This document shows, in pieces, positions 3,531 through 62,677 of a stretch of 64,000 nt of DNA. Every line of letters begins with the position of its first letter. Positions within the stretch are counted from its first letter, which is position 1. The notes beneath the pieces were generated by a model. The model had not been told where the DNA came from, did not search any database, and was given only the letters and a program-made list of their open reading frames with translations. A program made the translations under genes and the position numbers. Location: the NCBI RefSeq assembly GCF_014384785.1, contig NZ_JACRSU010000001.1, positions 806,001 through 870,000 of the forward strand, given 5' to 3'. The stretch comes from Congzhengia minquanensis. Lineage in GTDB: Bacteria; Bacillota; Clostridia; UBA1381; UBA9506.

Positions 3531-3550
3531 TGTTTCAGCCCTTTCCATTC

Positions 3551-12529: not shown

Positions 12530-14353
12530 TTACTGAAGAACCATGAGCGACGATACCTCATAAACGCCCAGCTTCTCTGTGCCGGCGGCCGTAATCACGT
12601 TGCCGACATTTAAATTTTTAATGGTTAAAAGTTTTCCGGACTTGGTATCTAAAATCTTTGTGCTGTCTTTCAAGAACAGCTGTTTTTCAAGCTCCTGGCC
12701 GTTTAATCCCTCATAGGTAATCACAACCAAGCCATAAGAGGTGTTAATGGTTTTAATGGTTCCCGTCACTGTCAGCGCTTCAGAGGCCGCCTCAGAAGCA
12801 ATTTCCGTTACGGTTTCGCTGGAAACTTCAAGCTTAACATAGGAACCCAGCTTTAAGTCGTAAATGGTGGCTTCCTTGCCCTCAATTGTAATGGTGCAGT
12901 CCCGTGCCATGGGATATTTCGATTTGTTTCCGCCTGAGGAAATGGTGATATACGAGGTGGAGCTGGAAACGGTAATTTCATCAATGGTGCCTTCAATGCT
13001 CTTTGCCTTGCCGGTTGCCATAATGTCGGAAATTTCACCGTAATCCAATGTGAGCTCGGCGTTGTCGCCAATAGCAAGCTCAGAAAAGTCTGCCTTTTTG
13101 CCGTTGCGCGTTATGGTCGCATTGTCTGCCAGCGTATATTCCACAGATTCTTCGTCGCTTGTCAGCACGGTAATCACAACACCGTTTGAGGAGGTGTCGA
13201 TATTTTCAATCTTCACGCTGGAGATTTTTCTTGTTTTTGGCTCTGCGCTTAACGACACGCCCAAGCCGCCGGACATTTTAATGGTAACATAGTCGCCGTT
13301 TTTAATGTCTGTAATGGCGCCGGAACCTCCGTTAATTTTAATTACCACATTTGACGCCAGCTTATAGCTTGTAACCGTTTCTTCCTCTTTCGTAATGTCC
13401 GCCAGCTTCACAGTGGTTCCAGCGTTCGTGGTCTGCTTGCCGCGGAACGCGCCGGAAACGGTTTCTTCGCCCTCATATGTAATTGCATCAATCTGATAAA
13501 GGCTTTCTTTCGAGAATGTGAACACACATTCCATGCCCACTTCCAGGTCGGTCAGCGTAACCTTTTCGCCGTCTAAGAAAATCGCGCTGGAGTTACCCAC
13601 GCCAAATTTCACGGTTTCGCCTTCCTCAGTTTTAATGCTCAAATTGTTCATTAAAGTATCTACGCTTGAAATCATGCCGCGGATATATTCAAAATCCATA
13701 GTGTCTAAAATTCTGCGAATCATAACGGCAATCTGTGCCCGGGTAACGGTTTCGTTCGGGCCGAACTTGTTGTCTCCCATGCCGTTCATAATGCCCAGCT
13801 CTGTGGCATAGAACACATAGCCCAAAGCCATTGCGGGAATATCGTCTTTATCGGCAAAGGTCACATCAATCTCGGGGTTTGTTTTCATCCATGCGTCTGC
13901 GCCCAGAGCTTTAGCAATTAAGGTTGCCGCCTCATAGCGCTTCAGCTCAACGTCACGCTTTTCTTTTGACAAATATTCTTTCACTTCATCGATGGTCAAA
14001 ACTTTTCTGTAAACCATGTAAGCGCCCTGCTTCACAGCATAGGAGTCTTCACAGCCCGCAAGATCTGCTTCATAAATGCCATAGGCCAAATTCACAATGG
14101 GCTCGTTCATCTTTTCGCTGGCGCCCAGGGCTTTTGAAAACAAGGTAATGGCCTCCTGCCGGGTAATGCTTTTACCAGGTTGAAACGTCCCGTCGTCATA
14201 GCCGGTGATAACACCGCTTTCTGACAGGGAATTTATTGCTTCCTGTGCCCAGGAATAATTGCTGTTTACGTCAGGAAATCCAGCCGCGAACGCGACAACC
14301 GCGGTTGACAATACCAGTACCAGTGACAAGACCAATGAAAGTACTTTTTTCAT
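12530..14353 (-). CDS. SLH-domain surface protein with tandem beta repeats
   Basis: A 607-residue secreted protein. It has a signal peptide (MKKVLSLVLSLVLVLST..AFA), then three SLH modules (about residues 27-215; hallmarks GVITGYDDGTFQPG, ITRQEA and VTRAQIAVMI) that bind pyruvylated secondary wall polymer. The rest is about five tandem repeats of 70-80 residues, each with a pattern of two beta strands, GK, then DL..G..V.L. I do not recognise this repeat by name; it resembles the beta-rich tails of other clostridial SLH proteins. The start at 14353 follows AGGAGG. Transcription ends at a strong hairpin. Likely a cell-surface structural or binding protein. Confidence 0.85.
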   Translation of the reverse strand: MKKVLSLVLSLVLVLSTAVVAFAAGFPDVNSNYSWAQEAINSLSESGVITGYDDGTFQPGKSITRQEAITLFSKALGASEKMNEPIVNLAYGIYEADLAGCEDSYAVKQGAYMVYRKVLTIDEVKEYLSKEKRDVELKRYEAATLIAKALGADAWMKTNPEIDVTFADKDDIPAMALGYVFYATELGIMNGMGDNKFGPNETVTRAQIAVMIRRILDTMDFEYIRGMISSVDTLMNNLSIKTEEGETVKFGVGNSSAIFLDGEKVTLTDLEVGMECVFTFSKESLYQIDAITYEGEETVSGAFRGKQTTNAGTTVKLADITKEEETVTSYKLASNVVIKINGGSGAITDIKNGDYVTIKMSGGLGVSLSAEPKTRKISSVKIENIDTSSNGVVITVLTSDEESVEYTLADNATITRNGKKADFSELAIGDNAELTLDYGEISDIMATGKAKSIEGTIDEITVSSSTSYITISSGGNKSKYPMARDCTITIEGKEATIYDLKLGSYVKLEVSSETVTEIASEAASEALTVTGTIKTINTSYGLVVITYEGLNGQELEKQLFLKDSTKILDTKSGKLLTIKNLNVGNVITAAGTEKLGVYEVSSLMVLQ

Positions 14354-14465
14354 ATTTTTATCCTCCTGTATCGTTTTTTCATACAAATATAAATACACGA
14401 TATTATTATACAACATTCAGAGAAAAAAAGCAATAGATGATTTTCATGTCACAAAAAAATAATAT

Positions 14466-27615: not shown

Positions 27616-27645
27616 AAAAGACCCGCGCTTAAGCGCGGGTCTTTT
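27616..27645. terminator. Terminator of the surface-protein operon
   Basis: A 30-base perfect palindrome (15-bp arms 27616-27630 and 27631-27645) with a GC-rich core and AAAAGA/TCTTTT ends. It closes the four-gene minus-strand operon. Confidence 0.9.
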
Positions 27646-27658
27646 ATTGGAAAATTCT

Positions 27659-30166
27659 TTATTTTGTTACCTCAATTACATCTGCGTAAGACACCATATC
27701 CGTGTCGAATATGCCGGTACCGCCCCAAACAAAAGCTTTTGCCTTTACGATTGGTTTCAGCTCCGGATCGTCTGCCGTTGTAACAGACAATGTGATTGTA
27801 TCGCTGTTTCCTTTTGTAACGGAAATCGGTTTTGAATCGAAGCGTACAACGCCATTATCTTCATCATATAAAATGATGGCCAGGAACATATTCATGTTGG
27901 AGTCGTCTGCCTTGTTGTTTTCAACAAAAAGCGAACCTGTGATAGAGCCGCTTGCCGCATCAAACTCGCCCAGTGTCGGCGTAATGGTAAACGCTGTTTT
28001 TATCATATCGTCTGCGCTGATTTTATATACTGCGCCTGCAACGCCGCCATCTGTGAACGGCATAATTTCAAACCGTAACGTGCCACCGATTGCCGTTTCG
28101 GGAATGAGATACTCATAAACATTTGTTGCAGCAGAAAGCTGTGCTAAAGTTACGCTTGTTCCGTCAGCCAATTCCTTCATAACGCGAACAACAGAGTTCC
28201 CTTCAAACACATTTTCTAATTCTGTCTGGAATTCATACCGGAATGTGGCTGTTCCGCCCACAACATTTGTTGACTCGAGGGACAGGTCTGTTGCATAAGG
28301 AAGCGTATAACCTGTTGGCTCAGGATCGGGCTCAGGTTCTGCTGCAGCTTTTTTATTAATAGCAACATCGTCTAAATAATAGGTTAAACCGGAAGCACCT
28401 CCGTCAACTACAAAGGACATAAACGGCTGTCTTGGACCTAAGGTCGAATCTGTGCCGGTAGTGGTGAACTTCGGGCTGTAAGGAATGGTATATTTCGTCC
28501 ACGTATCTGTCAGCTTCAGGTCTGTGCCCAAAAGCTCTGTATCAGGAACGTCATACAAGTCTGTTGTATCTTTTGTTTCAACCGCACGGTCGAGCTTCAC
28601 CTGAATATTTTTGCCAACAGATGCGCCTTCACCTTTTGCCCAGAACGAAATTTCATTTTCTGTGTTGTTTGCAATGTACACACCCTGGTTTACGCCGCCA
28701 TTTGCTTCATTTACTGTAATTTTTGCGCTTCTTGTTCCGACAGATTCTGCCGGAACGTCAGAAGAGGCTTCTACTGCAGCACCACTCTGGAACCAGCTGT
28801 AAAACGTGCCATATTTTTTGCTGTCATTATTCGAATCACGATCTTCATCTGTTGTAGGAATATCTCCCTTCAACCATTCAAAATCACCGTTTGCCGGTGC
28901 GTCAAAGCTTTCAATTCTGATGTTGTCAATGGAAAAGCTTGCAGCCTGTCTGCCATTATCCGTAGCACCAAGGTCTTTAAATGCGTCATTGCAGCAACGG
29001 AAGATAAAGGCAGTATCCTTTTCTACAAACGCTTTTACCTGACGGGTCATATAAACCTCATGATGCTGCCAGTCTTTTGTCAGTTTAACAGGTGTTTTAA
29101 TAAACTGGTATTTGTAATACGGATCGTAGGGATCTATGGTTGAAGCCCTGTCTGCAACGGCTTTCATATAGCTGCCAACGGTTGCATCATCATCCGCTTT
29201 TGCATCAAACGAAATTTTATACAGTTTGTTATACCGAATAGGCAAACTGCCGGTTTGTATTTGTACATAGCTATTACCCTCAGAGTTCGGCTTTTTGATG
29301 CTTGCGTAGCCAGGCTTACCATCGCTGCCTGCACCCTCGTTCCACGTGCCAAATCCGGCAGGAACTGAGACAGCACCACCATAGTCACTTAATTGCTTAG
29401 AAAAGTCCACATCAACTAAAACATTGGGGTCTTTTTCCTCCGGTTCTTCCGGAACTTCAGGTTCTTCCGGCTCTGAACCTGCTTCGTAGGGGTCTAAAAC
29501 CGGTTCAATAATAAAGTCATCCAGATACCAGGAAAGTTCCTGCGTGGGAGTATCCTTCGCCACAGCGTTTCCGAAAACATTGGCGCCTACGTCTCCCAAA
29601 CGGGGGCTGAACTTAAACTCCCCCTGCGCATCAAGATCCAAAGTCCAACCGCTGTTCATTGCGCCGTCCCAGTCAATAATTTTTTCCACATAAACCCATT
29701 CGCCGTTGTTAAACTTTTCATTGTCAACCGTCCAGCCGGTCATCCAGCGAGTAGGATTTTTCTGACCACTTTTGTCGTATGCCGGTCCCCAGAAAGCAAA
29801 TCCAAAATTTGTTTTTGCCAGCTTTGTTTTTGCTGTATCCAGCTTTACCCATGCAGACATTTTAAACTTGCCGTTTACCATAAAATGTGCGTCAGGAACG
29901 AAAAAATAATGGTCCGACATAGCACCTTTGCCATCCGTGCCTGCTGCCTTCTGGGTAATATGCAACGCCCCTGCTGAACCGCCGGCGCCGCCTTCAACCC
30001 ACTCCATATCATTTTGAGTCGATTTCAGATCACTCAAAGATGAAGGGTCTTCAAAATCCGAGTAGATATAGGGATAAGCCTCATATGCTTTGGCCTCAGC
30101 CGGAATGATGCCCACAACTGTGAGCAACATTCCGAGGACCAACGCGAGTGATATATACTTTTTCAT
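27659..30166 (-). CDS. Secreted multi-module carbohydrate-binding-like protein
   Basis: An 835-residue secreted protein with a signal peptide (first about 25 residues). It has at least three jelly-roll-like modules of the CBM4/9 kind (about 35-225, 245-420, 425-620), recognisable by repeated endings such as SWYLDDFIIEP, FSIDNIRIESF and TYYLDDVAINK. Pro/Glu-rich linkers (PEEPEVPEEPEE; EPDPEPTG) join them. The last about 190 residues are a beta domain also seen in the 747-residue secreted protein at 55.4 kb. No catalytic domain or SLH module is seen. Last gene of the operon, 30 bases after the beta-helix gene; it may bind glycan and hand it to the anchored partner. Confidence 0.75.
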   Translation of the reverse strand: MKKYISLALVLGMLLTVVGIIPAEAKAYEAYPYIYSDFEDPSSLSDLKSTQNDMEWVEGGAGGSAGALHITQKAAGTDGKGAMSDHYFFVPDAHFMVNGKFKMSAWVKLDTAKTKLAKTNFGFAFWGPAYDKSGQKNPTRWMTGWTVDNEKFNNGEWVYVEKIIDWDGAMNSGWTLDLDAQGEFKFSPRLGDVGANVFGNAVAKDTPTQELSWYLDDFIIEPVLDPYEAGSEPEEPEVPEEPEEKDPNVLVDVDFSKQLSDYGGAVSVPAGFGTWNEGAGSDGKPGYASIKKPNSEGNSYVQIQTGSLPIRYNKLYKISFDAKADDDATVGSYMKAVADRASTIDPYDPYYKYQFIKTPVKLTKDWQHHEVYMTRQVKAFVEKDTAFIFRCCNDAFKDLGATDNGRQAASFSIDNIRIESFDAPANGDFEWLKGDIPTTDEDRDSNNDSKKYGTFYSWFQSGAAVEASSDVPAESVGTRSAKITVNEANGGVNQGVYIANNTENEISFWAKGEGASVGKNIQVKLDRAVETKDTTDLYDVPDTELLGTDLKLTDTWTKYTIPYSPKFTTTGTDSTLGPRQPFMSFVVDGGASGLTYYLDDVAINKKAAAEPEPDPEPTGYTLPYATDLSLESTNVVGGTATFRYEFQTELENVFEGNSVVRVMKELADGTSVTLAQLSAATNVYEYLIPETAIGGTLRFEIMPFTDGGVAGAVYKISADDMIKTAFTITPTLGEFDAASGSITGSLFVENNKADDSNMNMFLAIILYDEDNGVVRFDSKPISVTKGNSDTITLSVTTADDPELKPIVKAKAFVWGGTGIFDTDMVSYADVIEVTK

Positions 30167-30196
30167 ATCTTATGCATCCTCCTGTTCTTTACAAAA

Positions 30197-33100
30197 TTAA
30201 TTTGTTTTACCGCTGTAAGGCGAGAATGTGAAGTCACCCGGGTTGTAAATGCCGAAGTAACCGCTTGCAGGAAGCGCATTTTCGTCCGTATCGAGGAAGT
30301 CGAACATATTTTCACCATTAATTGTAAGAACAACTCTGGTTCCTTCTTCGGTATCGAGCGCGCCGACAATAACGCTGCAGGTTTTGCCGTATTCATATAC
30401 CGGATCATCTTCCGGGTTCGGAATACCGGGGCCGCCCACCGGGGTAAATGCCGGGTCGTTGCCGAATATCATGGTACGTTCGCCCTTATTAAACCGCTGA
30501 AGCTCAATATGATCCTTTTTAAAGCCAATCATATAGGTTGAATCTGTCTTATAGCTTCCCATGGAATCCTGCGCACAGAACGTTATGGAAGGCCACGAGT
30601 TCGGATTGTTGATTTGCATGTCGAATGCAATCAGCTTATTATCAATTTTGCTTCCGGTATAGAATGACGGACTGCCCGAAATCTTAATACTGCCGCCCGA
30701 AACAGTGCCAGTGCCTCTCCACCCTGCGGTGGTAAAGAAGTTTGACGGAGCTTTTTCATAGGGAAGTTCTAAAGAATCTTCCTGCGTATAGGTAATTACC
30801 TTTACAGGAATATCCTTTTCCAACGTTTTTTCGCCATAAGTAACCTTAATGTGAACTGTGGTTTCACCTGTGCCGACAGCGGTTACTTTGCCTCCCGCAG
30901 CAACGGTTGCAACCGATTCGTCCGCCGAGGTCATTGTAATGCTTTCGCTCGGTATGGTAACGTCTTTACCGAAAGTGGTTTTACCTGTTACCGATACGGT
31001 AGTTGTATAGTCCTTAATCATGTTCAGCGCATTGACATTTATGCCGATGGAATCAAAGTCATCGCCTGCAAATACCTGGAACTGTTTGGTCTGGAGTCTG
31101 CCGTCTACCTCTGCTACACCCATAACCCAAACAACGCCCGAACCAACAACTTTCATGTTGCCTTCATCGTCCACTGTAAGAACAGACGGGTCGCTGGAAT
31201 AGAATTTTGTGTAGAAATCAGAAAGCGGATATTCTTTCTGATGACGGCCGGTAACCTTCACGTCGAGTTTGGCAGTTTCACCCTTGCCCAGCGTATATGC
31301 CCTTTTCTTTGCAACAAACGACTGCGGACCGTCGGGGAAGTTATCTGCATATTCCGGCTCAATTCCGGCGTTATTGATGATTTCCTGTGCTTCTTCCGGC
31401 CATTCGGCATCCGGAACGGTGATGTTGTCTCTTACAATATTATCTGTTCCGTTTTCTCTGTACTTGTCGGTTGTTGCATAGTTGTTTTCAACCGTGTTGT
31501 GCTGAATGCTGCCTGTGTGAATGTGCAGCCAGGTATACTGGTCTTTGCCCCAGGGGGATTCAACAAAGTTAAACTCCCATTGATCGATGTCGCTCATGTC
31601 GGTTACGTTGTCGTAAAGGTGCCAATAGGTGGAACCTTCATCCGGATACAACGCGCCATATGGGTTTCTGGGATTCTCAATGTAGTTGCCCACCATGCGG
31701 TTGTTTAAGTTCTTCGATTCTAAAGACGAAGCGCCAAGGGTATAAATTGGTGCGCCGTCATAAACTCTGTCGTTGTTAACCTCGTGAATATAGTTGTAGC
31801 CAACCTCTAAATCATACATTGCTGTGCCGGTGTCGGCATAAGATGCCCAACCGTAACCAATGTGATAGCCGGAGTAAGGAACGCTTACGATTTCGTTGTG
31901 GTTCAGCTCCGTATATCTCGGCCAAGCCGCGGAAATTGCCGCAGCAGACATATATTCCGTTGCCACATTATGAACATAGTTGCTGTTCACCTTGTTGTAT
32001 TCATTGAATTCTTCCGGCGTTGCGGGATTTGCACCGTCTTGAATACCGCCTAAGGAAACTGCTGTTCCGGCAATATCGAAGAATTCGTTGCCAATTACGT
32101 TACAATGCTTGATGGATTTTAACAGCTGCAGGCCGGTAATACCCATTCTGGTAAACTTATTGTTTGTAAAGTCAATATACTGGCCGTTTTCAACCAACAT
32201 TGCCGTTCCGGGCATTTTGTCGCCGTTCTCACGAATGTGGTTGTTCTGCGCGTCTGCGTGACCGCCCACTTGTGTCGGGCGGAGCCAGGTTGTGTCTGCA
32301 AACTCAATGTTGTTGAATTTAATGTTGTGAACAGGCTCTTTTGCAGATTTCCCTGTTGCTTTCAGCAGAACTTCGCCCTGGGGAACGGTCAGTTCTACAT
32401 TTTTAATGTCTTCGTTTGCTTTGGGGATATAGTACATGTAACCATCGTGGCTGTTCATGTACCACTCGCCCTCCTGGTCTAAGAGCTCGTATGCGTTTTC
32501 AACATAAGACGGGAACTGCTGATCCTGGCCAAGTTTTGTGTTAACCCTGACCTGAACATATTTCCACTCGTCCTGAACCGGTGTAAATTTCACTTTTCCG
32601 TTGCCCATGTCGGTGATGCTTTCCATAATTGCGCGGGGATTACACCAGCTTACATGGAACACAAATTCCAGCTCATCCGGATATGCAAAGTCTAAAAACT
32701 CTGTATCTTCCGAGGTATAATATGTTTTGTCAATGTATTCCGGATTGGTAAGGCCGGCAACGCTTCTGGCGCGAATGCCCTTAACGTTGTTAAAGTATGC
32801 CTGTCTTGTTACCGTTCCTTTTCCTACATATACTTTATAAATATTTTTGCTTGCATCGTGAAGTTCAAAGCCTTTATATTTCTGCCCCATAGACAGAACC
32901 GGCTTTTCGTCACCCCAAGAGGTGTAAATAATGCTGTAACCGTTGTTACCGGAATCTTCTGCCGTCAGTTCAAAGGTTCTATCCAAATAATGTTCACCGC
33001 GGATTAAAACCTTAATGTCATTTGACATGGTATCGGTAATTTTACGAATCATGTCGCGGGCGGCATATATCGTCTTTAACGGTGCTTCTGCCGTTCCGTC

Positions 33101-34345
33101 GTTATTGTCGTTGCCGTTGTCTGCGTCAACATATACATTAAATTTGGTAGAAAATTCTGCAACTCTCATTAAAATCTGTGCTGCTTCTGCTCTTGTAATG
33201 TGGTTTTTCGGCTTATAGGAACCATCGTCATAGCCTTTAATGAGGCCATATTCCGCCGCATCTTTTACTGCCGTTTTCGCCCAAACAGTAATGTCTGCAT
33301 CGTCTGTGAAGCCCGAAACCTCTGCTGTTTTCTCCGCTTCTTTTGAAACTGCGGCCTTTGCGGCAATAGACGCCGCTTCTTCCCTGGTGATTGCCTGGTC
33401 GGGCTTAAAGGTGCCGCCAACGGTCAGTGCCGTATCCAAAAGGCCGAGCTTGTTAGCAATGGTCACACTGGATGCAAACCACTCATCCCCCTTAACGTCG
33501 GAGAACGCGCCGTCATATTTCGGGGCGGTAAGATGATATGTGTCTGTAATCATTTTTACAAACTGCGCTCTTGTCAGGTCGGAATTCGGCGCATACTGGT
33601 TGTTGCCGATTCCTTCAATATAACCATAGGTTGCCAATGTGTTTACCGTGTCTTTTGCCCAGTGGTTCTGCATGTCTTCAAAGTTCACTTGTGTCACAGA
33701 AACCGGCTCCTGCACAACTGGCTTGCTGGGCTGTGTGGGTTTGTTTGAACTGCCGCCCATTACGCTGCTGTAGTCCGCCGGAACATCGCCGTGGGGCACA
33801 CAGGTAAAGTTGTCAATATAATAGGTTTCCAGCTGTGTGCCGTCGCCGTAACGGATTTCAAACTGTCCCGCCCCCGACGTCTGTACATTTTGTGTGTTGA
33901 TACCTGCGTTGGTCCATGTAATTTTAAATTTGCTCCAACTTGTATTAAACTGTCCGCTGCGGGTGATGTAATACCAGCCGCCATCGCTGAACTGAAAAAT
34001 CAGGTTCATTGCAGCTGCCTTGTCTGCCTTTAAATCGAACGAAATATCATAGGTTTCGCCCACAACAAAGGGAGCAGGGATTCTAATACCGCCGTAGGTT
34101 CCCTTAACTTCAACCTTTGTGCAGCCCTTGCTGCCCCCGGCGCCTCCATCTTGAAAAGAAATTGTGGCGTTTCCGGTTTTTGTTGTTTTTGCAACTTCTT
34201 CTGCGGAATCAAATGTACCCCAGGGGTATATGTTGACCTGTTCGCCGCCGGATGCTGTTGGGTCTTTTTTTGCAGCCATTGCCGACGGAATTGCCGTCAC
34301 CACCATAGCCGCCGCTAAAAGTGCGCTCAGTAACTTCTTTTTCAT
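30197..34345 (-). CDS. SLH-anchored right-handed beta-helix protein, likely glycan-active
   Basis: A 1382-residue secreted protein: signal peptide; carbohydrate-binding-like module (about 35-195); three SLH modules in the interior (about 222-405); a long parallel beta-helix (about 410-960) that opens with YVDADNGNDNNDGTAEAPLK, the usual start of this fold in GH141-type and polysaccharide-lyase-like enzymes; a bacterial Ig-like domain (about 1020-1190); and a C-terminal LamG-like module (about 1205-1382). An internal SLH block is unusual, as these are mostly at an end. The catalytic residues cannot be assigned. It starts where the upstream SLH gene stops (TAATG), with GGAGGTGG as ribosome site. 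Confidence 0.8.
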   Translation of the reverse strand: MKKKLLSALLAAAMVVTAIPSAMAAKKDPTASGGEQVNIYPWGTFDSAEEVAKTTKTGNATISFQDGGAGGSKGCTKVEVKGTYGGIRIPAPFVVGETYDISFDLKADKAAAMNLIFQFSDGGWYYITRSGQFNTSWSKFKITWTNAGINTQNVQTSGAGQFEIRYGDGTQLETYYIDNFTCVPHGDVPADYSSVMGGSSNKPTQPSKPVVQEPVSVTQVNFEDMQNHWAKDTVNTLATYGYIEGIGNNQYAPNSDLTRAQFVKMITDTYHLTAPKYDGAFSDVKGDEWFASSVTIANKLGLLDTALTVGGTFKPDQAITREEAASIAAKAAVSKEAEKTAEVSGFTDDADITVWAKTAVKDAAEYGLIKGYDDGSYKPKNHITRAEAAQILMRVAEFSTKFNVYVDADNGNDNNDGTAEAPLKTIYAARDMIRKITDTMSNDIKVLIRGEHYLDRTFELTAEDSGNNGYSIIYTSWGDEKPVLSMGQKYKGFELHDASKNIYKVYVGKGTVTRQAYFNNVKGIRARSVAGLTNPEYIDKTYYTSEDTEFLDFAYPDELEFVFHVSWCNPRAIMESITDMGNGKVKFTPVQDEWKYVQVRVNTKLGQDQQFPSYVENAYELLDQEGEWYMNSHDGYMYYIPKANEDIKNVELTVPQGEVLLKATGKSAKEPVHNIKFNNIEFADTTWLRPTQVGGHADAQNNHIRENGDKMPGTAMLVENGQYIDFTNNKFTRMGITGLQLLKSIKHCNVIGNEFFDIAGTAVSLGGIQDGANPATPEEFNEYNKVNSNYVHNVATEYMSAAAISAAWPRYTELNHNEIVSVPYSGYHIGYGWASYADTGTAMYDLEVGYNYIHEVNNDRVYDGAPIYTLGASSLESKNLNNRMVGNYIENPRNPYGALYPDEGSTYWHLYDNVTDMSDIDQWEFNFVESPWGKDQYTWLHIHTGSIQHNTVENNYATTDKYRENGTDNIVRDNITVPDAEWPEEAQEIINNAGIEPEYADNFPDGPQSFVAKKRAYTLGKGETAKLDVKVTGRHQKEYPLSDFYTKFYSSDPSVLTVDDEGNMKVVGSGVVWVMGVAEVDGRLQTKQFQVFAGDDFDSIGINVNALNMIKDYTTTVSVTGKTTFGKDVTIPSESITMTSADESVATVAAGGKVTAVGTGETTVHIKVTYGEKTLEKDIPVKVITYTQEDSLELPYEKAPSNFFTTAGWRGTGTVSGGSIKISGSPSFYTGSKIDNKLIAFDMQINNPNSWPSITFCAQDSMGSYKTDSTYMIGFKKDHIELQRFNKGERTMIFGNDPAFTPVGGPGIPNPEDDPVYEYGKTCSVIVGALDTEEGTRVVLTINGENMFDFLDTDENALPASGYFGIYNPGDFTFSPYSGKTN

Positions 34346-36087
34346 TAATTTCCACCTCCGATTAACATGAGGAGTTCATAAACGACCTTTGAGGCCTGCG
34401 CACGTGTAACAGCGTTCTTAGGCGCAAAGGTGCCGTCTCCCATACCATTGATGATCTGTGCGCCTGTTAAAACGCCCACTGCTTCTTTGGCATAGCCAGA
34501 GATGCTGTCTGCATCTGAAAAGTCAAGCGCTTGAGCCTGGCTGTTTAAGCCGGATAAGCTATATACGCGGTGCATGATAACCGCCATATCCTCTCTGGTA
34601 ATGCTGCCGGAAGGATTGAATTCATTATTTTCATTGCCCGTGACAAGGCCAAGTCTTGCTGCAGAAGCAATGTAGCGGTAACTCCAGCCGTCTGCGCTCA
34701 CATCTGTAAATTCGCATTCTGCGCCGGCATCATAAACATCGAATGCTAAAACAATCAGTTTTACAAATTCTTCTCTTGTCATAACATCGTTGGGATAGAA
34801 CTTGCCGTCTCCCCTGCCGGATACCACACCTTTCCCAGCCAGGTACTTCACGCTGGATTCTGCCCACTGAGCAGAGTCTAAATCAGAGAAGTTTGTGTTA
34901 TAAGACGGTTTGTCGTTCGTATTGGTGTTGTTCGCATCTCCATCAACAACAACGCCGGAACCGGGATTGTTGTTCTTAGAACCCGAACCGGAGGGACGGG
35001 AACCGCTGCTACCGCCACCGCTGCCTCCGCCGCCGGTATTGCCGTCATCTTCTTCATACCCGTCAAGCAAATCTTTCATAATGTCGTCAGCATCCTTTTC
35101 CAATGCGCTGATTGATTTGCTTTCTTTGTTTTTAAGACTTTTAAACAGGTCGTTTTCTAATTTTTTATCAAAAATTTCTTTGTAATTGGACTCATTGATG
35201 CTGATAATGTCTTTTTCCAGGTAATAGTCAAATGCATCCTTAAGTGAAATGTAGTCGAGCTCCTCTTCTACAGCAAGCATACAAGCCTTATCAAAGGCAA
35301 GAGAAAGTTCCTCCTGCTCCAAGGTTGGTTTGCCTTCACTCTTAAAATAGTTCATTACAACAGCAGAAGTTAATTTATCATAATATGTTCCGTCTAATAA
35401 CTTCTTTTCAATGGCTGTTTTCACCGTTGCATCCCAATTAACCGCGTTTGCATCAGCAATTTTGGCAAGCAGCATTTCTGCGTCCATTTCTTGTGTAAAA
35501 CGGGTTTCTATTTCTTCAATATTTGCTTCTGTGGCCGCAAGGTCAATCGCCTCAATTTTTTCATCCACTAAGAGGCGAACTTCTTGAGATAGTGCCTTAT
35601 ACTCGGTAAGGTCATATGTAAGTTTGCTGTCCTCGCCCGTAATGAGATTATAAATCCCGTCGTTTTCCTTTACTGCCTGATCAAGCTTGTTATAAAAATC
35701 AATTTTGTCGAAAACGTTAATGAACAGAAACTCTTTAACGATAGTTTCAACACCACCGCCTACATGAACCCAATAAGTACCCGTTTCATGAGTAGGCTGC
35801 ATTTTAAAATGGAACTGATATTGATATTTCCCATCGTCTGTGAGGGTATATTCATGGGTCTGGTCCATACCTCCCAGCACCTTAGCGCCGGTGCTTTCCT
35901 TTGTATCTGTTATTTGTGCCGTGACCTCGCCGGTTGCAGCAGCATCTGCCGTAACCGTTACATCAACCTTGAACAGGTCCAGGCTGATGCCAATTTCCGC
36001 CGTTGCTTGTGCGGCTGAAACAGAGAGCATGGAAACAAACATGAAAAGCGCAGATAAAATAACCGATAGAAACTTTTTCATTGTCAT
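34345..36087 (-). CDS. SLH-domain surface protein with Gly/Ser-rich linker
   Basis: A 580-residue secreted protein. After a signal peptide (about 1-26) come a beta-sandwich-like domain (about 28-125), a helical acidic region (about 130-350) with repeated Glu/Leu patterns, a Gly/Ser-rich linker (about 352-385), and three C-terminal SLH modules (about 395-578; GVVSGRGDGKFYPND and INGMGDGTFAPKNAVTRAQ). The helical part has no match I know. It is translationally coupled to the beta-helix gene and follows the 914-residue protein gene by 26 bases. Likely a surface scaffold or spacer. Confidence 0.8.
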   Translation of the reverse strand: MTMKKFLSVILSALFMFVSMLSVSAAQATAEIGISLDLFKVDVTVTADAAATGEVTAQITDTKESTGAKVLGGMDQTHEYTLTDDGKYQYQFHFKMQPTHETGTYWVHVGGGVETIVKEFLFINVFDKIDFYNKLDQAVKENDGIYNLITGEDSKLTYDLTEYKALSQEVRLLVDEKIEAIDLAATEANIEEIETRFTQEMDAEMLLAKIADANAVNWDATVKTAIEKKLLDGTYYDKLTSAVVMNYFKSEGKPTLEQEELSLAFDKACMLAVEEELDYISLKDAFDYYLEKDIISINESNYKEIFDKKLENDLFKSLKNKESKSISALEKDADDIMKDLLDGYEEDDGNTGGGGSGGGSSGSRPSGSGSKNNNPGSGVVVDGDANNTNTNDKPSYNTNFSDLDSAQWAESSVKYLAGKGVVSGRGDGKFYPNDVMTREEFVKLIVLAFDVYDAGAECEFTDVSADGWSYRYIASAARLGLVTGNENNEFNPSGSITREDMAVIMHRVYSLSGLNSQAQALDFSDADSISGYAKEAVGVLTGAQIINGMGDGTFAPKNAVTRAQASKVVYELLMLIGGGN

Positions 36088-36113
36088 GTTTTCCTCCTTC
36101 CGCAGCTTTAAGC

Positions 36114-38858
36114 CTACTGTTTAAATACAATAATTTCTGCTGCATTTACATATTTTTGAAGACGTACCACAATGGTGTCACCGACAGTAATAGAATTAAT
36201 GTCGCCTGTTGTTGCTTTTTCTGTTTTAGGTCTGTAGATTACAACACTGGGTGAGTCGGTGTAGACCATATTCTCCGTACCGCTTCCGTCAATAAATGTT
36301 ATCAGGTTTTTATCCGTTGCGTTATTAGAAACCACACCCATAACTTTATTGTAACCATCTGTTCCGTCACCAATGGGGCTGCTGCTAAATAACGGCGTGA
36401 TCGCTCCCGTTTCGGCGTTATACTCTGTCATAATGTCAATGGCGTCAATATAACCGTTTTCATCTGTACCATACTGGATAACATAACCAGGTTTAATGAT
36501 ACCTGAAATTTCATCGGGTTTGATTTCTGTGTACTTTGCATCATTGCCTTTTCTGTATTCAACCTTATCAGATACAATCACTGATTCCGATTCATTCATG
36601 TAAATTTTCTTGGTTGCGTTACCTTCGGCATCAACTGCATTTGTAATCTTTGTTACCACATTAAATTTAGACGTGTTACTGCTAATGCCTTCTGAAACGC
36701 TGCATCCGCGAAGCAGGACAACATCGGCCACATTGATATCACTTGAATTCAAATCATACACAACATAATCTTCAATAACCTGCGTATAATTGCCGCTCTG
36801 TCTGTAATAATAATTCGCTTTTAAATTTCTTTGAACCTTATAGTTCTCCGTTTCGTCCAGTTTTCCTTCACCAGGCGTTAAGAAGATATATGCTTCGTTC
36901 GGAACATATCTTGCATATTTTGTTCCGGCATCATTTGTTGTAAGTCTCATGATACCATTGTCTCTTAACAAAAAGCTGGTTCCGGCTGCAAACTCACGGA
37001 GTTTTCCTTCTTCACCTGTCTTGCCGGTATCCAGATAGCTGATTTTTCCGTCTGAAATGGTGTATCTCACCACATAAGCGGAATGAATATAATAATTTCC
37101 CTCGCTGTTCTTCGAGCCGTTTGAAAGCACTTTCAATATGTTTTCAAACCCGCTTCCAGATGTTGTGTATCTGTTGCCGTCAATATTCACGGTGCTCTTC
37201 AGCGGTGCTGTAATAAAGGTACCATCCTGTGTGAACAGTTTTAATTGAATCTCTGAAACGACAGATTGTTCGTTATAATCCAAGCCGGCAACAACTGCAT
37301 AGTTTTGTGTTCCTGTAACGCCGCCGCGGTCTGAAGCAACAATCTTGCCGTTGATGTTTAAATAGAACACCGCACTCATTCCGGCTTTGATTTCGCCGCC
37401 CTGGTAGTCGTTTGATGTTTTATAATATTCGCCGCCGATTAAATAACCCAAATCGGTGGATACCTCGTCAACCATTCCGGTTACGGTCTGCCTGGAAACA
37501 TAAACCGTAATCAATTTCGGAGAACCTTTGCTTTCCATAATGGTTGCAACGTCCCACTGTTTCAAGCTGGAAAGGCCAATTCTCTTGTTTTCCGGCATCA
37601 GATAGAACTGTACCTTATCCTCCTGGAAGTCATATGCAAACTTTTCGTTTGTATACATTGCCGTAAAGGTTTCATCATAGGTGTCAATCGAATTTACCAC
37701 AATGTCTTTGTAAGCGTAAACAAAAAGGATTTCGGCCGTATTGTCGCCGGTGTTGTCCAGCGCTTCAATGTAACCTTCTTCAGGAAGCACGTTTTCAATT
37801 TTTCCGTATCCGCTGTAACATTTGCCGTTATAAATTACGTCTATGTTGTTCGCAAGACTGATATGGCGTTCTCTGTCATTTTCATCTGTGTAATAGATGC
37901 GGTTCGACGTTGTTTTGTCCGGAACCAGATCTTTGCTGTCAACTTTAGTGAGGTTATTTACTTTTGTGTTTTCTTCCACAAAAGCAATTTCAAAGTCACT
38001 GTCAGCCGTCTTCCTTAAATAATATGTAACGGAACGGCCTAAGGATGTGGCATATACATATCCTGGTGTGTCGTAAACCACGTTATCGATTTCAATCTGC
38101 TCGTCCGTTAAGTTGGAAAGCGTAGACGTAAGACGTGTGTTTTCATTCCCCGTTACGATACCTTTATATTCGGTGATGTCGTAAGTGTCGCTTAAAAATG
38201 TCTCTGTTTCAGACACCCTGTAGTCAACGGAGCCATCTGTAAAGTTCATTGGTATTACAGCGCCGGCCTCCATTGCGGATTCAAGCAGCTTATACACATC
38301 GCAAAGGGGAATTTGTTCTCTGCCCGACTGGAACTTGAGGTTTGAGAGCATGCCCAGTTTAATTGCGATTCTGTGATACCCCGTGGGGAATCCGCCCTCT
38401 CTGGCCGCAAACAGCTTGTGGCCTACGGCATTTACAACGAAAACAATCGCTTCGTCGTATGTAAGATTGTCGTCCGGGTGAAATTTCAACGCTTCATCAC
38501 CGGTTATGATTCCCGCATTGTAAAGTGCGGTAATTTTATCGATAGATGCGTCTTTCACTGACACGTCTATGAAAGGTGACTGCGTTGGATTTGTGCCGGA
38601 AACCTGAAGGCGCAAATATTTGGTGATAATATCCACCATCTGCCTTCTGGTCACATACATTCCAATGTCATCATACTCGTTGGTAATTGCTCCGAAAGCT
38701 TCTAACTTTTCAACAATCACTCTGTCTGCATCTGTCAGTTCTACAACAGGAAGTTCTTCCTGTGCGTCTTCCGCATATACAGAAGATGAAAACGCCGCGC
38801 TAGCTGCTAACGTTGCCAAAACAACAAGTAATGACACAAAACGTTTCATTTCCTTCAT
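36114..38858 (-). CDS. Large secreted protein with degenerate N-terminal SLH modules
   Basis: A 914-residue secreted protein. Signal peptide about 1-30, then three SLH-like modules (about 40-205) that are degenerate but keep the YNAGIITGDEALKFHPDD pattern. The remaining about 700 residues are beta-rich with several repeats of the kind 'G.V......Y.L..' and no known catalytic motif. The same overall plan (N-terminal SLH then long beta tail) occurs in the 607-residue SLH protein at 12.5 kb. ATG 38858 follows GGAGG. First gene of the four-gene surface operon. Confidence 0.78.
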   Translation of the reverse strand: MKEMKRFVSLLVVLATLAASAAFSSSVYAEDAQEELPVVELTDADRVIVEKLEAFGAITNEYDDIGMYVTRRQMVDIITKYLRLQVSGTNPTQSPFIDVSVKDASIDKITALYNAGIITGDEALKFHPDDNLTYDEAIVFVVNAVGHKLFAAREGGFPTGYHRIAIKLGMLSNLKFQSGREQIPLCDVYKLLESAMEAGAVIPMNFTDGSVDYRVSETETFLSDTYDITEYKGIVTGNENTRLTSTLSNLTDEQIEIDNVVYDTPGYVYATSLGRSVTYYLRKTADSDFEIAFVEENTKVNNLTKVDSKDLVPDKTTSNRIYYTDENDRERHISLANNIDVIYNGKCYSGYGKIENVLPEEGYIEALDNTGDNTAEILFVYAYKDIVVNSIDTYDETFTAMYTNEKFAYDFQEDKVQFYLMPENKRIGLSSLKQWDVATIMESKGSPKLITVYVSRQTVTGMVDEVSTDLGYLIGGEYYKTSNDYQGGEIKAGMSAVFYLNINGKIVASDRGGVTGTQNYAVVAGLDYNEQSVVSEIQLKLFTQDGTFITAPLKSTVNIDGNRYTTSGSGFENILKVLSNGSKNSEGNYYIHSAYVVRYTISDGKISYLDTGKTGEEGKLREFAAGTSFLLRDNGIMRLTTNDAGTKYARYVPNEAYIFLTPGEGKLDETENYKVQRNLKANYYYRQSGNYTQVIEDYVVYDLNSSDINVADVVLLRGCSVSEGISSNTSKFNVVTKITNAVDAEGNATKKIYMNESESVIVSDKVEYRKGNDAKYTEIKPDEISGIIKPGYVIQYGTDENGYIDAIDIMTEYNAETGAITPLFSSSPIGDGTDGYNKVMGVVSNNATDKNLITFIDGSGTENMVYTDSPSVVIYRPKTEKATTGDINSITVGDTIVVRLQKYVNAAEIIVFKQ

Positions 38859-38900
38859 TTTTGTTCCTCCATCCATTTTACAATATAATATGCTAACTAT

Positions 38901-38929
38901 ATTTTATACTAATTTCCCCGTTTTTGCAA
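38901..38929 (-). promoter_or_regulatory. Promoter of the surface-protein operon
   Basis: On the minus strand TTGCAA (38929-38924), 17-base spacer, TAAAAT (38906-38901), about 42 bases before the first start codon. The rest of the 236-base gap is A/T-rich with no clear operator. Confidence 0.55.
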
Positions 38930-43740: not shown

Positions 43741-43815
43741 TGGAGCGGAAGACGAGATTCGAACTCGCGACGTTCACCTTGGCAAGGTGACGCTCTACCA
43801 CTGAGCCACTCCCGC
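43741..43815 (-). tRNA. tRNA-Gly (anticodon GCC)
   Basis: 75 bases including encoded CCA. The acceptor stem GCGGGAG/CTTCCGC has one G-T pair; the anticodon stem CACCT/AGGTG holds loop TTGCCAA with anticodon GCC; the T arm GCGAG-TTCGAAT-CTCGT is standard. Last of four tRNAs transcribed together. Confidence 0.97.
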
Positions 43816-43834
43816 ATCATATATAAAACTTTGG

Positions 43835-43910
43835 TGGTGCCTCCGGGCGGAATCGAACCACCGACACAGGGATTTTCAGTCCCTTGCTCTACCGACTGAG
43901 CTACAGAGGC
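43835..43910 (-). tRNA. tRNA-Phe (anticodon GAA)
   Basis: 76 bases including encoded CCA. The acceptor stem begins GCCTCTG and ends CGGAGGC; the anticodon stem GGGA/TCCC carries loop CTGAAAA with anticodon GAA; the T arm has GGTTCGATTCC. Third in the tRNA operon. Confidence 0.97.
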
Positions 43911-43916
43911 ATGGGT

Positions 43917-43993
43917 TGGCGACTCGGATGGGGTTCGAACCCACGACCTCCAGCGTGACAGGCTGGCATTCTAACCAACTGAACTACCGAGCC
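43917..43993 (-). tRNA. tRNA-Asp (anticodon GTC)
   Basis: 77 bases including encoded CCA. The acceptor GGCTCGG/CCGAGTC has one G-T wobble; the anticodon loop CTGTCAC gives anticodon GTC between stems CCAGC and GCTGG; the T arm GGGTTCGAACCC is perfect. The discriminator is G as expected for tRNA-Asp. Confidence 0.97.
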
Positions 43994-44005
43994 ATAAAGA
44001 CAAAT

Positions 44006-44081
44006 TGGTGGGCGCTACAGGGCTCGAACCTGTGACCCTCTGCTTGTAAGGCAGATGCTCTCCCAGCTGAGCTAAGCGCCC
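44006..44081 (-). tRNA. tRNA-Val (anticodon TAC)
   Basis: 76 bases including encoded CCA. The acceptor is GGGCGCT/AGCGCCC; the anticodon stem CTGCC/AGCAG region holds loop CTTACAA with anticodon TAC; the T arm is CAGGTTCGAGCCCTG. First gene of the tRNA operon, right after its promoter. Confidence 0.97.
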
Positions 44082-44268: not shown

Positions 44269-44706
44269 ATGAACGACAGAAACAGCTATAACACGAAACA
44301 AAAACAATTGATTTATGACTTTTTTGCGGCAAATCCAGACCGGCAGTTTTCCGCCAAGGAAGTTTCAAACAGCGTGAAGCAGCAGGCAAAAATTGGGGAA
44401 AGCACCGTTTACCGCTTGATAAAAAAGCTGACGGAGGACGGTGAAATCCGCCGATTCAGCGGAAAAGACGTGAAAGCGGTGGTTTATCAGTTTGCCAACC
44501 AAAGCGAGCACTGCCATGAGCATTTTCACTTAAAATGTACCGGCTGCGGGGAGCTGATTCATTTAGACTGCGGACTGGTGAAGGAGTTTGAGGCGCACAT
44601 GACCAGCCACCACGGCTTTTCCATTGACCATTTAAAGACCATTATATATGGCACCTGCGCCAACTGCGCAAACAAAAAGGAGATAAAACATGAAACAACC
44701 ATATAA
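44269..44706 (+). CDS. zur: Fur-family zinc regulator (Zur)
   Basis: A 145-residue Fur-family repressor. The N-terminal winged helix (about 1-78) precedes a metal-rich dimer domain: HCHEHFH (His81, His83, His85, His87), two CxxC structural zinc motifs (Cys90/Cys93 and Cys130/Cys133) and further ligands His110, His114/115 and His121. I call it Zur rather than PerR or Fur because it heads an operon with a zinc ABC transporter. It overlaps the binding-protein gene by 17 bases and lies behind a Fur-type operator, so it should repress its own operon when zinc is plentiful. Confidence 0.87.
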   Translation: MNDRNSYNTKQKQLIYDFFAANPDRQFSAKEVSNSVKQQAKIGESTVYRLIKKLTEDGEIRRFSGKDVKAVVYQFANQSEHCHEHFHLKCTGCGELIHLDCGLVKEFEAHMTSHHGFSIDHLKTIIYGTCANCANKKEIKHETTI

Positions 44707-45664
44707 AAAATTAATGGCCCTGGCGCTGATATTTTCTGCGGTTCTCTCCCTGTTTGGGTGCGGTCCGGCGGAAACCCTTTCCGGCGTCGGGGATAAAAAA
44801 CTAAAAATTGTCGCCACAAACTTTCCGCCCTTTGACTTTGCGCGGCAGCTTGCCGGCGAATTGGCAGACGTTACCATGCTGCTCTCTCCCGGCCAAGAGA
44901 GCCACACCTTTGAACCAACGCCCCAAGATATTATTAAAATTCAGCAGGCAGACATTTTTATCATGGGCGGCGGCGAATCTGACCAATGGGCAAAAAAACT
45001 GATTTCCTCCTCCCAGCTTGACGAGGGGAAAACACTTTTCATGATGGACTGCGTGGAAACCGTTCCCGAAGAACTTACCGAGGGAATGAACCACAATCAC
45101 GAAGAACACGCAGACGAAGACCACAGCGGATTTTATGAATATGATGAGCATGTGTGGACGTCGCCTGTAAACGCCATGGAAATTTGCAGTAAACTGACAG
45201 AAAAGCTGATTGCCGCGGACAAAGCCCACGAACAGGCTTACACAGAGAATTTAAACCGCTATCTTGCCCAGCTTGAAGAGCTTGACGAAAGTTTCGCCGC
45301 GGCGGTGGAACGCGGCGTACGGAAAACGCTGGTTTTCGGCGACCGGTTCCCCTTTCGCTATTTTGCGGACCGCTATGGCCTGACGTACTTTGCGGCGTTT
45401 CCGGGCTGCTCCGGCGAAACCGAGCCTGATGCCGCCACCATGAAATTTTTGATTGATAAAGTAAGCGAAGAAAACATTCCTGTTGTGCTGCATGTTGAGC
45501 TTTCCAACCAGAAAATTGCAGACGCCATTTGTGAGGCAACAGGAGCGAAAAAAGCACTGCTTCACTCCTGTCACGGCGTGACAAAAGACGAGTTCGACCG
45601 GGGAGAAACCTATGTGTCCCTGATGAAAAACAACGTAGATGTGTTGAAGGAGGCGCTTTCGTAA
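44690..45664 (+). CDS. znuA: Zinc ABC transporter substrate-binding lipoprotein
   Basis: A 324-residue cluster A-I binding protein. The signal peptide ends in LFGC (lipoprotein, Cys about 22). Metal ligands are the His in GQESHTFEP, the His in DEHVWTSP and His/Asp residues in the C-lobe, together with a His/Asp/Glu-rich loop (NHNHEEHADEDH, about 125-136) that is typical of zinc rather than manganese carriers. AAGGAG precedes ATG 44690, inside the zur gene. It delivers zinc to the ZnuB/ZnuC permease encoded downstream; the stop overlaps the znuC start. Confidence 0.9.
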   Translation: MKQPYKKLMALALIFSAVLSLFGCGPAETLSGVGDKKLKIVATNFPPFDFARQLAGELADVTMLLSPGQESHTFEPTPQDIIKIQQADIFIMGGGESDQWAKKLISSSQLDEGKTLFMMDCVETVPEELTEGMNHNHEEHADEDHSGFYEYDEHVWTSPVNAMEICSKLTEKLIAADKAHEQAYTENLNRYLAQLEELDESFAAAVERGVRKTLVFGDRFPFRYFADRYGLTYFAAFPGCSGETEPDAATMKFLIDKVSEENIPVVLHVELSNQKIADAICEATGAKKALLHSCHGVTKDEFDRGETYVSLMKNNVDVLKEALS

Positions 45665-49087: not shown

Positions 49088-51202
49088 ATGGCAAAATGGA
49101 TTTGGCTCAATCAACAGGATTACCCGGAAATTCAAACGACTTTCTGCACACAATTTTGTGATAAAGACGGCTATTCATACGCAGTGGCGGATTTTTTCCG
49201 CACATATACCTTTCAAAAGCGCGTGATAAAAGCCAATATTACGGTAAGCGGGGACACAAAATTCCGTTTGTGGGTAAACGGCGATTTCGCCGTAACCGGG
49301 CCGGTGTGCCCCGGCGGGGACTATGGCTATGAAAAGCCTATGGCAAACTACTATGCAAATGTTTTGTGTTTCTATCCTGAAAGCAACACGCTGGACTTTT
49401 TTGCCCAGGTGCAGCTTTCCCCCGTTGTGCAGACAGACGTGTCCGCCGGCCGCGGCGGTTTTTACTTAGAGTGTATTGTTACGTTTTCAGACGGCTCGAA
49501 AACCGTTATTGGAACAGATAAAAGCTGGCTCTGCACGAAAAATACAGCATACCTTTCACCGAATAAGCTGAATTTTACCCTGCCGTCGGACAAAAAAAGC
49601 AATGCAGAAGAAATTGAATCTGTATGGAATTTAAAAAAATCGGAAATACCAAATTTACAGGAAGAAAAAGTTCTGCCCAAAAACCACCGCGCACTGGTTA
49701 CTGCACCGCACACGTCGCAAACCTTTTATCTTGATTTCGACCGCATATATTCCGGCTACGCCGCATTTACTGTAACAGCGGAGGGCGATTGCCGGATTTC
49801 TATAAAAACCTTTGAGGCGCCGGAGAAGGTGCTTTGGGAAGAGGAGCTTCATATAAACGGCAGCATGCCGTATCGCTCGTTCCGCTTAAACTCCATTGGC
49901 GGCATGGAACTTACCGTGGAGAACAACAGCGAAACAAACGTTTCTATTTCTGACGCAGGGCTTATTTTCACCTGCTACCCCGTTGATACCGAGGGTACCT
50001 TTTCGTGTTCCGACGAATTGCTCAACAAAATTTATGATGTGGGCAAATGGACAACGAAAATCTGCCGTCAGACCATTCATTTAGACAGTCCCAAGCATCA
50101 GGAAAACTTAGGCTGCACGGGGGACTATTATGTGGAAAGCTTAATTTCATATTATTGCTTCGGCGACCCGCGCCTTACGCGGTTTGATATTCTGCGGACA
50201 GCGGATTTGCTGAAACAGCGGGGTGGGTTTATGTTTCACACCTCTTACAGCCTGATTTGGGTGCAGATGTTATATGACTATTATCTGTTTTCCGGCGACA
50301 GCGCCGTTTTCGGCCAAACGAAAGACGCGCTCCACCTGCTGATGGACCGGTTTTTCGGATATGAAGAGAAAGACACGGGTCTGATTGATACTCCGCCCAG
50401 CTTTATGTTTATCGACTGGATTCCGGTTGACGCGTATAATCTGCACCATCCGCCGAAAGCGCTGGGGCAAACGGCCCTTTGTGCCTTTTACTACCGCGCC
50501 TTATGTTTGGCGGCAAAAATTTCGGACAGTTTACTCGACTCGGAGCACGCCCGAATGTACAGTGACCGGGCAAAGCGGTTAAAAGCGTCTTTCCACAAGG
50601 CGTTTTTTGTGCCGGAAAAGGGGCTTTACAAAAGCGGGCTGAACACCCCCACGCCGGAGGCGCTGGTGAACCAGTTCATGCCGCAGAATACGGATAAGGT
50701 TTATTTTGGAAAGCATGAAAATTCCCTTGCGGTTTTATATGGCCTGTGTCCGGAAAACCTTTCCGCTCCCATTATGGAAACGGTGGTCAACAGCTCTTCT
50801 CTTACAGACGTTCAGCCCTATTTTATGCATTTTGTGTTAGATGCGGTGTATAAAGCGGGACTGTTCGCAAACTATGGCCTTTCGCTGATTCGGCAATGGA
50901 AAAAACAGGTTGACGAATGCAGCAAGGGCATGAAAGAGATGTGGGGCGACTTTCCCGGATATGGCTACGACTACAGCCACGCCTGGGGCGCAACGCCCTC
51001 ATACCAGCTTCCCGCAAAGCTTTCGGGGCTGACGATTTTAGAACCGGGGTTTAAAAAAATTACCCTTGCGCCCAACCTGTTTGAGCTTAATTGGGCTGAG
51101 ATTGACATTCCTACGCCCTTTGGCAGCATTCATATGAAGCTAAAGAAAAATGAAACGCCCGTCATTTCTGTGCCGGACGAAATTGAATATCAAGTGATTT
51201 AG
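49088..51202 (+). CDS. GH78-like alpha-L-rhamnosidase
   Basis: A 704-residue cytoplasmic enzyme with the layout of GH78 rhamnosidases: N-terminal beta domains (about 1-295), an (alpha/alpha)6 six-hairpin catalytic domain (about 300-620) and a C-terminal beta domain. The GH78 hallmarks DSPKHQENLGCTGD (about 331-344; usual form D.P.R.ER.GW.GD) and YSHAWGATPSY are present, but the first is altered: Arg to His, Arg to Asn and Trp to Cys. It may act on rhamnose-like or other deoxysugars of plant pectin. GGGAGGGG precedes ATG 49088. A MATE transporter gene follows after 15 bases. Confidence 0.82.
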   Translation: MAKWIWLNQQDYPEIQTTFCTQFCDKDGYSYAVADFFRTYTFQKRVIKANITVSGDTKFRLWVNGDFAVTGPVCPGGDYGYEKPMANYYANVLCFYPESNTLDFFAQVQLSPVVQTDVSAGRGGFYLECIVTFSDGSKTVIGTDKSWLCTKNTAYLSPNKLNFTLPSDKKSNAEEIESVWNLKKSEIPNLQEEKVLPKNHRALVTAPHTSQTFYLDFDRIYSGYAAFTVTAEGDCRISIKTFEAPEKVLWEEELHINGSMPYRSFRLNSIGGMELTVENNSETNVSISDAGLIFTCYPVDTEGTFSCSDELLNKIYDVGKWTTKICRQTIHLDSPKHQENLGCTGDYYVESLISYYCFGDPRLTRFDILRTADLLKQRGGFMFHTSYSLIWVQMLYDYYLFSGDSAVFGQTKDALHLLMDRFFGYEEKDTGLIDTPPSFMFIDWIPVDAYNLHHPPKALGQTALCAFYYRALCLAAKISDSLLDSEHARMYSDRAKRLKASFHKAFFVPEKGLYKSGLNTPTPEALVNQFMPQNTDKVYFGKHENSLAVLYGLCPENLSAPIMETVVNSSSLTDVQPYFMHFVLDAVYKAGLFANYGLSLIRQWKKQVDECSKGMKEMWGDFPGYGYDYSHAWGATPSYQLPAKLSGLTILEPGFKKITLAPNLFELNWAEIDIPTPFGSIHMKLKKNETPVISVPDEIEYQVI

Positions 51203-62598: not shown

Positions 62599-62677
62599 TT
62601 TGAATCCACCCTTTCTTAAATTTGGCTTCATAGCAATAGCATACCCAAAATTATGCAGTCAATACCGGCTGCCGCAG

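Follow-up and report, generated by a model that had tools for sequence, protein, structure and literature searches.

A recurring pair of SLH-bearing surface proteins in a probable glycan-degrading operon of Congzhengia minquanensis

In a stretch of 64,000 nucleotides from the gut bacterium Congzhengia minquanensis, a member of the Clostridia (assembly GCF_014384785.1, contig NZ_JACRSU010000001.1, positions 806,001 to 870,000 of the forward strand), hereafter the window, four adjacent genes on the minus strand form an operon for large surface proteins, here called A, B, C and D (914 or 920, 580, 1382 and 835 amino acids). We consider it reasonably probable that this operon represents a single glycan-degrading cassette, tethered through S-layer homology (SLH) domains and built on a recurring surface chassis of A and B. 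The operon is real and conserved, as are its domains, and C belongs to a known enzyme family in a new setting. What is new here is the recurring A+B pair and, more tentatively, a module at the C-terminus of D that we call DC; the functions proposed for them are deduced from sequence. The Monoglobus genome paper is said to describe SLH-bearing carbohydrate-active enzymes (CAZymes), which may overlap with the pair or the operon. No such pair or operon is described in the titles and abstract openings of the open-licence PMC papers that literature searches listed, and the recurring pair is apparently new to the literature.

Homologs of A were identified at E <= 1e-20 in 93 of the 95 genomes in the order of G001, a metagenome-assembled genome (MAG) from goat caecum, the count being capped at 9 or 10 matches per genome. 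In a sample of 391 genomes from the class, 110 had homologs of A, and at least 19 of these belong to the order. The B family was found in 92 of the 95 genomes, many of the matches covering the SLH part alone. Gene neighborhoods were studied in 80 A regions, drawn from a list sorted by similarity to an alignment led by the window, the first 40 of which were partly chosen for several loci per genome; the open reading frame (ORF) caller was crude and contig ends cut many of the runs. A B-like gene with a C-terminal SLH region is located within two genes of A in the same directon in 40 loci, here called paired, while 31 loci are solo and 9 have other neighbors. The two genes are directly adjacent in 38 loci, with A before B in 16 and B before A in 22, and the gap between them (median 19 bases) is at most 50 bases in 37 of the 38. 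Among 20 regions from the class listing, from 19 genomes that by inference lie outside the order, A has a B-like neighbor in 5. The first-pass annotation of this DNA was silent on A+B as a pair that recurs far beyond the window operon.

In a tree of the A proteins of the window and 79 loci (80 in all, leaving out L064, in which A is cut), 30 solo loci and 8 of those with other neighbors form one clade with SH-aLRT support of 100, its 38 loci coming from 38 different genomes. The sole solo locus outside this clade, L108, sits at a contig end. The paired A proteins form many deep lineages, several of which have long branches of unsure placement. A conserved neighbor of the solo clade was also sought, but the commonest cluster occurs in only 10 of the 38 regions and the gene context therefore gives no function for solo A. 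The A-A distances correlate with the B-B distances (rho 0.26 over 37 loci, namely 36 of the 40 paired loci and the window; none of 2000 permutations as high), also when partners are shuffled within genomes only (mean 0.14; 2 of 2000 reach the observed value) and when the cassettes of the window, G001 and G074 are removed (rho 0.27; 5 of 2000 as high). Comparisons within genomes, 38 pairs that are not independent of each other, give a rho of 0.69. The correlation argues for inheritance of the two genes as pairs rather than for contact between their products, and A and B thus appear, from their sequences, to be a co-inherited SLH-bearing pair.

The paired regions also differ from other regions in gene content. 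ATP-binding cassette (ABC) transporter genes were identified in 22 of the 40 paired regions versus none of the 40 solo or other regions (p 8e-9) and 3 of 20 controls (p 0.005), the latter being chosen places on long contigs of the same genomes, of which 3 carried an A or B gene and were kept. They lie in the same directon as A in 18 of the 40 paired loci, with permeases in 11. The transporter profiles were built from protein clusters of these regions, one representative of each matching Pfam BPD_transp_1, SBP_bac_1 or DUF3502. Sixteen of the 40 paired loci have a gene for glycoside hydrolase family 141 (GH141), the family of C, in the directon, a share raised by the choice of loci. Pfam scans, with the best 25 families per scan, covered 96 of the 121 operon proteins, leaving out those typed as GH141 and four genes after D in L058. 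They revealed GH28, GH29, GH30, GH43, GH59, GH94 and GH130, F5/8-type and CBM_4_9 modules, GDSL esterases, AraC and response regulators and L-fucose isomerase, most of the enzyme families in one or two proteins each, and in three loci GH88 is encoded within the directon, upstream of A. The ABC genes and the CAZyme families together make many of the paired regions look like polysaccharide loci. A protein of 570-600 amino acids is encoded directly upstream of A in L066, L070, L076 and L077, next to GH88 in three of them; two members were checked and had no Pfam match.

The window operon itself is tightly packed, with a gap of 26 bases between A and B, an overlap of one base (TAATG) between B and C and a gap of 30 bases between C and D, and these coordinates and sizes agree with those given in the first-pass annotation. 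Its single strong terminator also stood, whereas its promoter amounts to a weak consensus match in a window where promoter-like sites outnumber chance expectation. Judging from the sequence GGAGG located 6 bases upstream, the most likely start of A is the ATG at 38858, giving 914 residues.

In close relatives the four genes are not scattered where this can be checked. The order A-B-C-D is complete in three loci of G001 (L058, L059 and L062), and in a fourth (L064) contig ends cut A and D; two more loci (L060 and L061) contain A and a cut B. The proteins of L058 are identical to those of the window at 53 (A), 48 (B), 50 (C) and 38% (D) of positions. The same order in G074 (L065) is a weaker case, with B in two ORFs and a protein of 449 amino acids in the place of D that is a weak match only and was not recovered at E 1e-15. 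The two ORFs of this B (368 and 247 amino acids, at L065:7021-8895) indicate a pseudogene or an assembly error. In L180 of G438, a genome that by inference lies outside the order, A, B and two genes for GH141 with SLH stand in a row, and the GH141 cassette thus extends beyond a single order.

Protein C is a GH141 enzyme by family (40.6 bits to Pfam GH141_M, cut-off 27) and by its catalytic pair of aspartates, which identifies the glycan-enzyme beta-helix that had been proposed from the sequence alone. The equivalent residues in BT1002, D523 and D564, are reported to be critical (PMC10154630), and both are kept in 19 of 21 aligned GH141 domains; in the other two (L074_0 and L130_8), each located at an end of its available stretch, both positions are empty. 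Described members of the family include BT1002, an alpha-L-fucosidase acting on rhamnogalacturonan II (RG-II; PMC10154630), the cellulosomal xylanase Xyn141E (PMC5593877) and the Wf141 endo-fucanases (PMC12786026). The catalytic beta-helix, the insertion domain and both aspartates are common to these enzymes and C, but in C they are fused to an internal SLH trimer within a repeated operon. GH141 and S-layer homology are both mentioned in PMC5604425, PMC12871809 and PMC7480376. PMC10154630 puts the GH141 genes reported so far at not above two per genome; the 2-Mb genome G001 has 15 GH141_M matches, of which 14 exceed the cut-off. Expansions were also seen in G056 (28 matches) and G057 (16), many of the matches being short and below the cut-off.

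Protein D is predicted to be of a glycan-binding type, with CBM_4_9-type modules and no SLH, much as the first-pass annotation had noted; that D ends in a module common to other SLH-less secreted proteins had gone unremarked. A profile iterated from the last residues of D over 100 regions matched this DC module in 44 proteins, in 29 of them C-terminally. The C-terminal matches are distributed as 22 in paired regions (3.1 per 100 kb), 2 in solo or other regions (0.33) and 5 in controls (1.25). Among proteins of the paired regions with at least 350 amino acids and a signal-like N-terminus by a crude test of our own, with A, B, solute-binding proteins and kinases dropped, 20 have SLH only, 17 have a C-terminal DC only, none has both and 52 have neither (p 0.008); because of these 52, DC is not the sole other state. 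The module matches no Pfam family (best E 0.017, in one of 13 members) and has no credible relative in the PDB by sequence search. A fair guess is that DC serves as an alternative module for attachment or docking. Against this, four rounds of iteration over beta domains of loose similarity may have made the profile drift, the window D ending at 28 bits, and 15 of the 44 matches are not C-terminal. Four of the latter are located inside SLH-bearing B-type proteins (L083_6, L085_5, L088_4 and L096_4), and the exclusion of SLH is therefore limited to C-terminal DC.

The SLH trimers of A, B and C occupy N-terminal, C-terminal and interior positions, respectively, as had been noticed at first pass (Table 1). 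In A only one SLH repeat is named by Pfam, and the protein matched nothing in NCBIfam or in a PDB sequence search. A search for homologs of A yielded 104. The structure model of A (pLDDT 82) resembles known structures weakly in the last domain, which is somewhat like CusF/OB folds and the S-layer self-assembly domain 9fs9 in the structure search. Whole-length matches outside the SLH part to propeller and Rhs structures had TM values of 0.05-0.1 and were discarded. The helical domain of B had no convincing structure match among the matches listed. The most divergent part of the B-paired A proteins is the distal half, with a mean identity of 0.20 for residues 481-914 versus 0.26 for residues 200-480 and 0.28 for the SLH part, whereas the two regions outside the SLH part are conserved equally in the solo clade (0.48 each). 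In eight loci (L067, L078, L083, L088, L090, L092, L096 and L134) the B-type C-terminal SLH region is part of a larger protein of 1000-2495 amino acids.

Table 1. Features of the operon and its proteins (positions in the window)
Feature	Position	Strand	Remarks
Gene A	36114..38876	-	914 aa (start 38858) or 920 aa; N-terminal SLH trimer and long chain of small beta domains
Gene B	34345..36087	-	580 aa; C-terminal SLH trimer
Gene C	30197..34345	-	1382 aa; GH141 enzyme, internal SLH trimer
Gene D	27659..30166	-	835 aa, without SLH
Possible promoter TTGCAA-17-TAAAAT	38901..38929	-	9/12 consensus; weak
Intrinsic terminator, strong	27616..27645	-	downstream of operon
A residues 42-200, SLH trimer	38259..38735	-	degenerate sequence with a single remaining TR motif (Arg71)
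A residues 201-914, tandem beta domains	36117..38258	-	no Pfam family; structure model and structure search
B residues 26-123, Ig-like beta sandwich	35719..36012	-	
B residues 125-343, helical domain	35059..35715	-	structure model
B residues 386-575, SLH trimer	34363..34932	-	three TR motifs
C residues 26-205, N-terminal module, like a carbohydrate-binding module (CBM)	33731..34270	-	local profile cross-matches of 18-21 bits (L064, L066) to N-termini of relatives' D-type proteins; weak
C residues 219-398, SLH trimer	33152..33691	-	
C residues 409-916, GH141 catalytic beta-helix and insertion domain	31598..33121	-	BT_1002 (5mqp) E 7e-41; PF21231 E 3e-10
C Asp863 codon, equivalent of BT1002 D523	31757..31759	-	alignment
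C Asp902 codon, equivalent of BT1002 D564	31640..31642	-	alignment
C residues 1006-1190, Big_2 Ig-like domains	30776..31330	-	PF02368, two stretches
C residues 1196-1382, C-terminal module	30200..30760	-	matched in relatives
D residues 453-569, CBM_4_9	28460..28810	-	PF02018 E 8e-7, two stretches
D residues 745-835, DC module	27662..27934	-	unnamed; recurs C-terminally in SLH-less secreted proteins

The three SLH trimers bear out the surface tethering proposed earlier. Such trimers bind a pyruvylated wall polymer, with an arginine in TRAE-type motifs of the repeats (PMC6081394); TR is kept in three repeats each in B and C, and in A only Arg71 is kept. A PS_pyruv_trans gene was found in 92 of 95 related genomes, but 8 of 14 control genomes have one as well, and E. 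coli is one of these. The family is therefore not specific for CsaB and only allows, rather than shows, a pyruvylated wall polymer.

In the reading that we favor, A and B would form a locus-specific surface chassis that lines or spans the wall, and D and the N-terminal module of C would hold a branched plant glycan. C would cut fucosyl- or xylosyl-type linkages in this glycan, which may be RG-II- or hemicellulose-like, and the products would be taken up by a transporter whose genes lie elsewhere. D lacks an SLH region of its own and may be held through its DC module.

The SusC/SusD proteins of the Bacteroidota are a paired surface family with many paralogs per genome and locus-specific enzyme partners, and in this respect A+B are similar. 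They differ by being anchored through SLH, and uptake, where present in relatives, is by ABC transporter genes; no SusC or SusD domain was identified by Pfam in A-D or in ten flanking genes. Like the cellulosome, the operon encodes multi-module surface enzymes with binding modules, but A, B and C carry their own SLH, no dockerin or cohesin was found in A-D in Pfam at E <= 1, in line with the earlier suggestion of a system without dockerins, and DC is no more than a candidate docking module. Polysaccharide utilization loci (PULs) of Gram-positive bacteria carry ABC transporters, as do the 22 paired regions mentioned above, whereas no such transporter of sugar type was found adjoining the window operon, and the SLH pair is an extra element. 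We know of no A+B pair among the SLH-anchored glycoside hydrolases of Caldicellulosiruptor. Judging from the title of the paper describing them (PMC4807261), these are likewise surface-layer-associated and multi-domain. The operon is a member of neither the SusCD nor the cellulosome systems, and a Sus-like mode of working is possible.

Several observations weigh against a glycan-degrading cassette on an A+B chassis. Eighteen of the 40 A+B regions contain no ABC gene, and transporter profiles drawn from these very regions favor matches there over the controls. The ten flanking genes that were scanned around the window operon contain no sugar-type ABC transporter, no AraC or two-component regulator and no further CAZyme, and the operon is therefore not a complete Sus-like system. 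Since GH141 spans fucosidases, xylanases and endo-fucanases, the substrate of C cannot be read off from its family. D-like proteins occur in only 5 of the 95 genomes of the order, G074 not included, and D of L059 matches that of the window over the last ~220 residues only, which suggests that binding modules have been swapped and the C-terminus kept. The sample of A loci comes from a ranked, non-random list that favors GH141 loci, and the A-B correlation is based on gapped p-distances near saturation, with the SLH domain included in B and with dependence among the intra-genome pairs.

It is unlikely, in our opinion, that A and B are general structural proteins of the S-layer or envelope that occur in glycan loci as a co-regulated surface coat with no role in glycan use. 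The B-paired A lineages are many and deep and track their B partners, they lie in regions with transporter genes, and their distal half has diverged the most, whereas the solo clade is evenly conserved throughout residues 200-914. We also give a low probability to the idea that four independent surface proteins are co-produced without any assembly, D being simply secreted. The separate SLH trimers of A, B and C and the lack of cohesin and dockerin domains by Pfam in the four proteins fit this idea, but the conserved order and spacing, the A-B correlation and the enrichment of C-terminal DC in A+B regions speak for a common unit, although none of them shows contact. A bolder and rather doubtful extension of our own hypothesis is that A+B, a paralogous surface pair matched to its locus, is the wall-anchored equivalent of SusC/SusD and marks out polysaccharide loci throughout an order of gut Clostridia, with DC as a docking tag, independent of cohesin and dockerin, that brings SLH-less enzymes and binding proteins to the pair; the internal DC matches lower its weight.

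The GH141 domain of C could instead act on a host or microbial glycan, such as mucin fucose or a bacterial wall or capsule polymer, which we consider quite improbable. The family includes an alpha-L-fucosidase (PMC10154630), and GH29 and L-fucose isomerase were found among the 96 operon proteins of other A+B loci, but in one protein each, which reduces their weight. The same loci carry GH88 (three loci), GH28 (two proteins), GH43 (one) and GH30-type enzymes (two), a GH78-type gene lies ~10 kb away in the window, and G001 comes from a goat caecum, all of which is indirect evidence for a plant polysaccharide. Finally, A could be an outer-membrane porin with an SLH tether in a diderm cell. OmpM porins consist of SLH and a barrel, and in A a large beta-rich region comes after the N-terminal SLH. 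In diderm Firmicutes, OmpM serves both for tethering and as a channel for uptake (PMC10628300). However, the model of A, as its secondary structure was read, has many short strands in consecutive small domains and no porin was among the best 50 matches of either structure search; we considered this explanation and dropped it as highly improbable.

Other features of the window include a GGDEF signalling protein encoded two genes downstream of the operon and a GH78-type alpha-L-rhamnosidase (PF17389) at 49088-51202. A protein with a GH18 domain and C-terminal SLH repeats, at 60895-62631, is another SLH-bearing enzyme, and a protein of 628 amino acids at 12530-14416 has N-terminal SLH repeats and no other Pfam match. 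Farther from the operon, a zinc-uptake ABC gene is located at 44690-45664 and the gene for an ABC-2 membrane protein at 699-3548. A cluster of four tRNAs on the minus strand (43744-44081) accounts for all Rfam matches in the window at the gathering threshold.

Glycan capture at the wall of Gram-positive gut bacteria is far less clear than the SusCD systems of the Bacteroidota. With the A+B pair, experiments can address the glycan to which each pair responds, a possible binding of A to B and the proposed docking role of DC. The GH141 expansion, with 15 matches in a single 2-Mb genome, offers a source of specificities yet to be explored. A marker of two proteins, present in nearly every genome of one order and in multiple copies in many of them, would make it possible to find polysaccharide loci by synteny in uncultured Clostridia.
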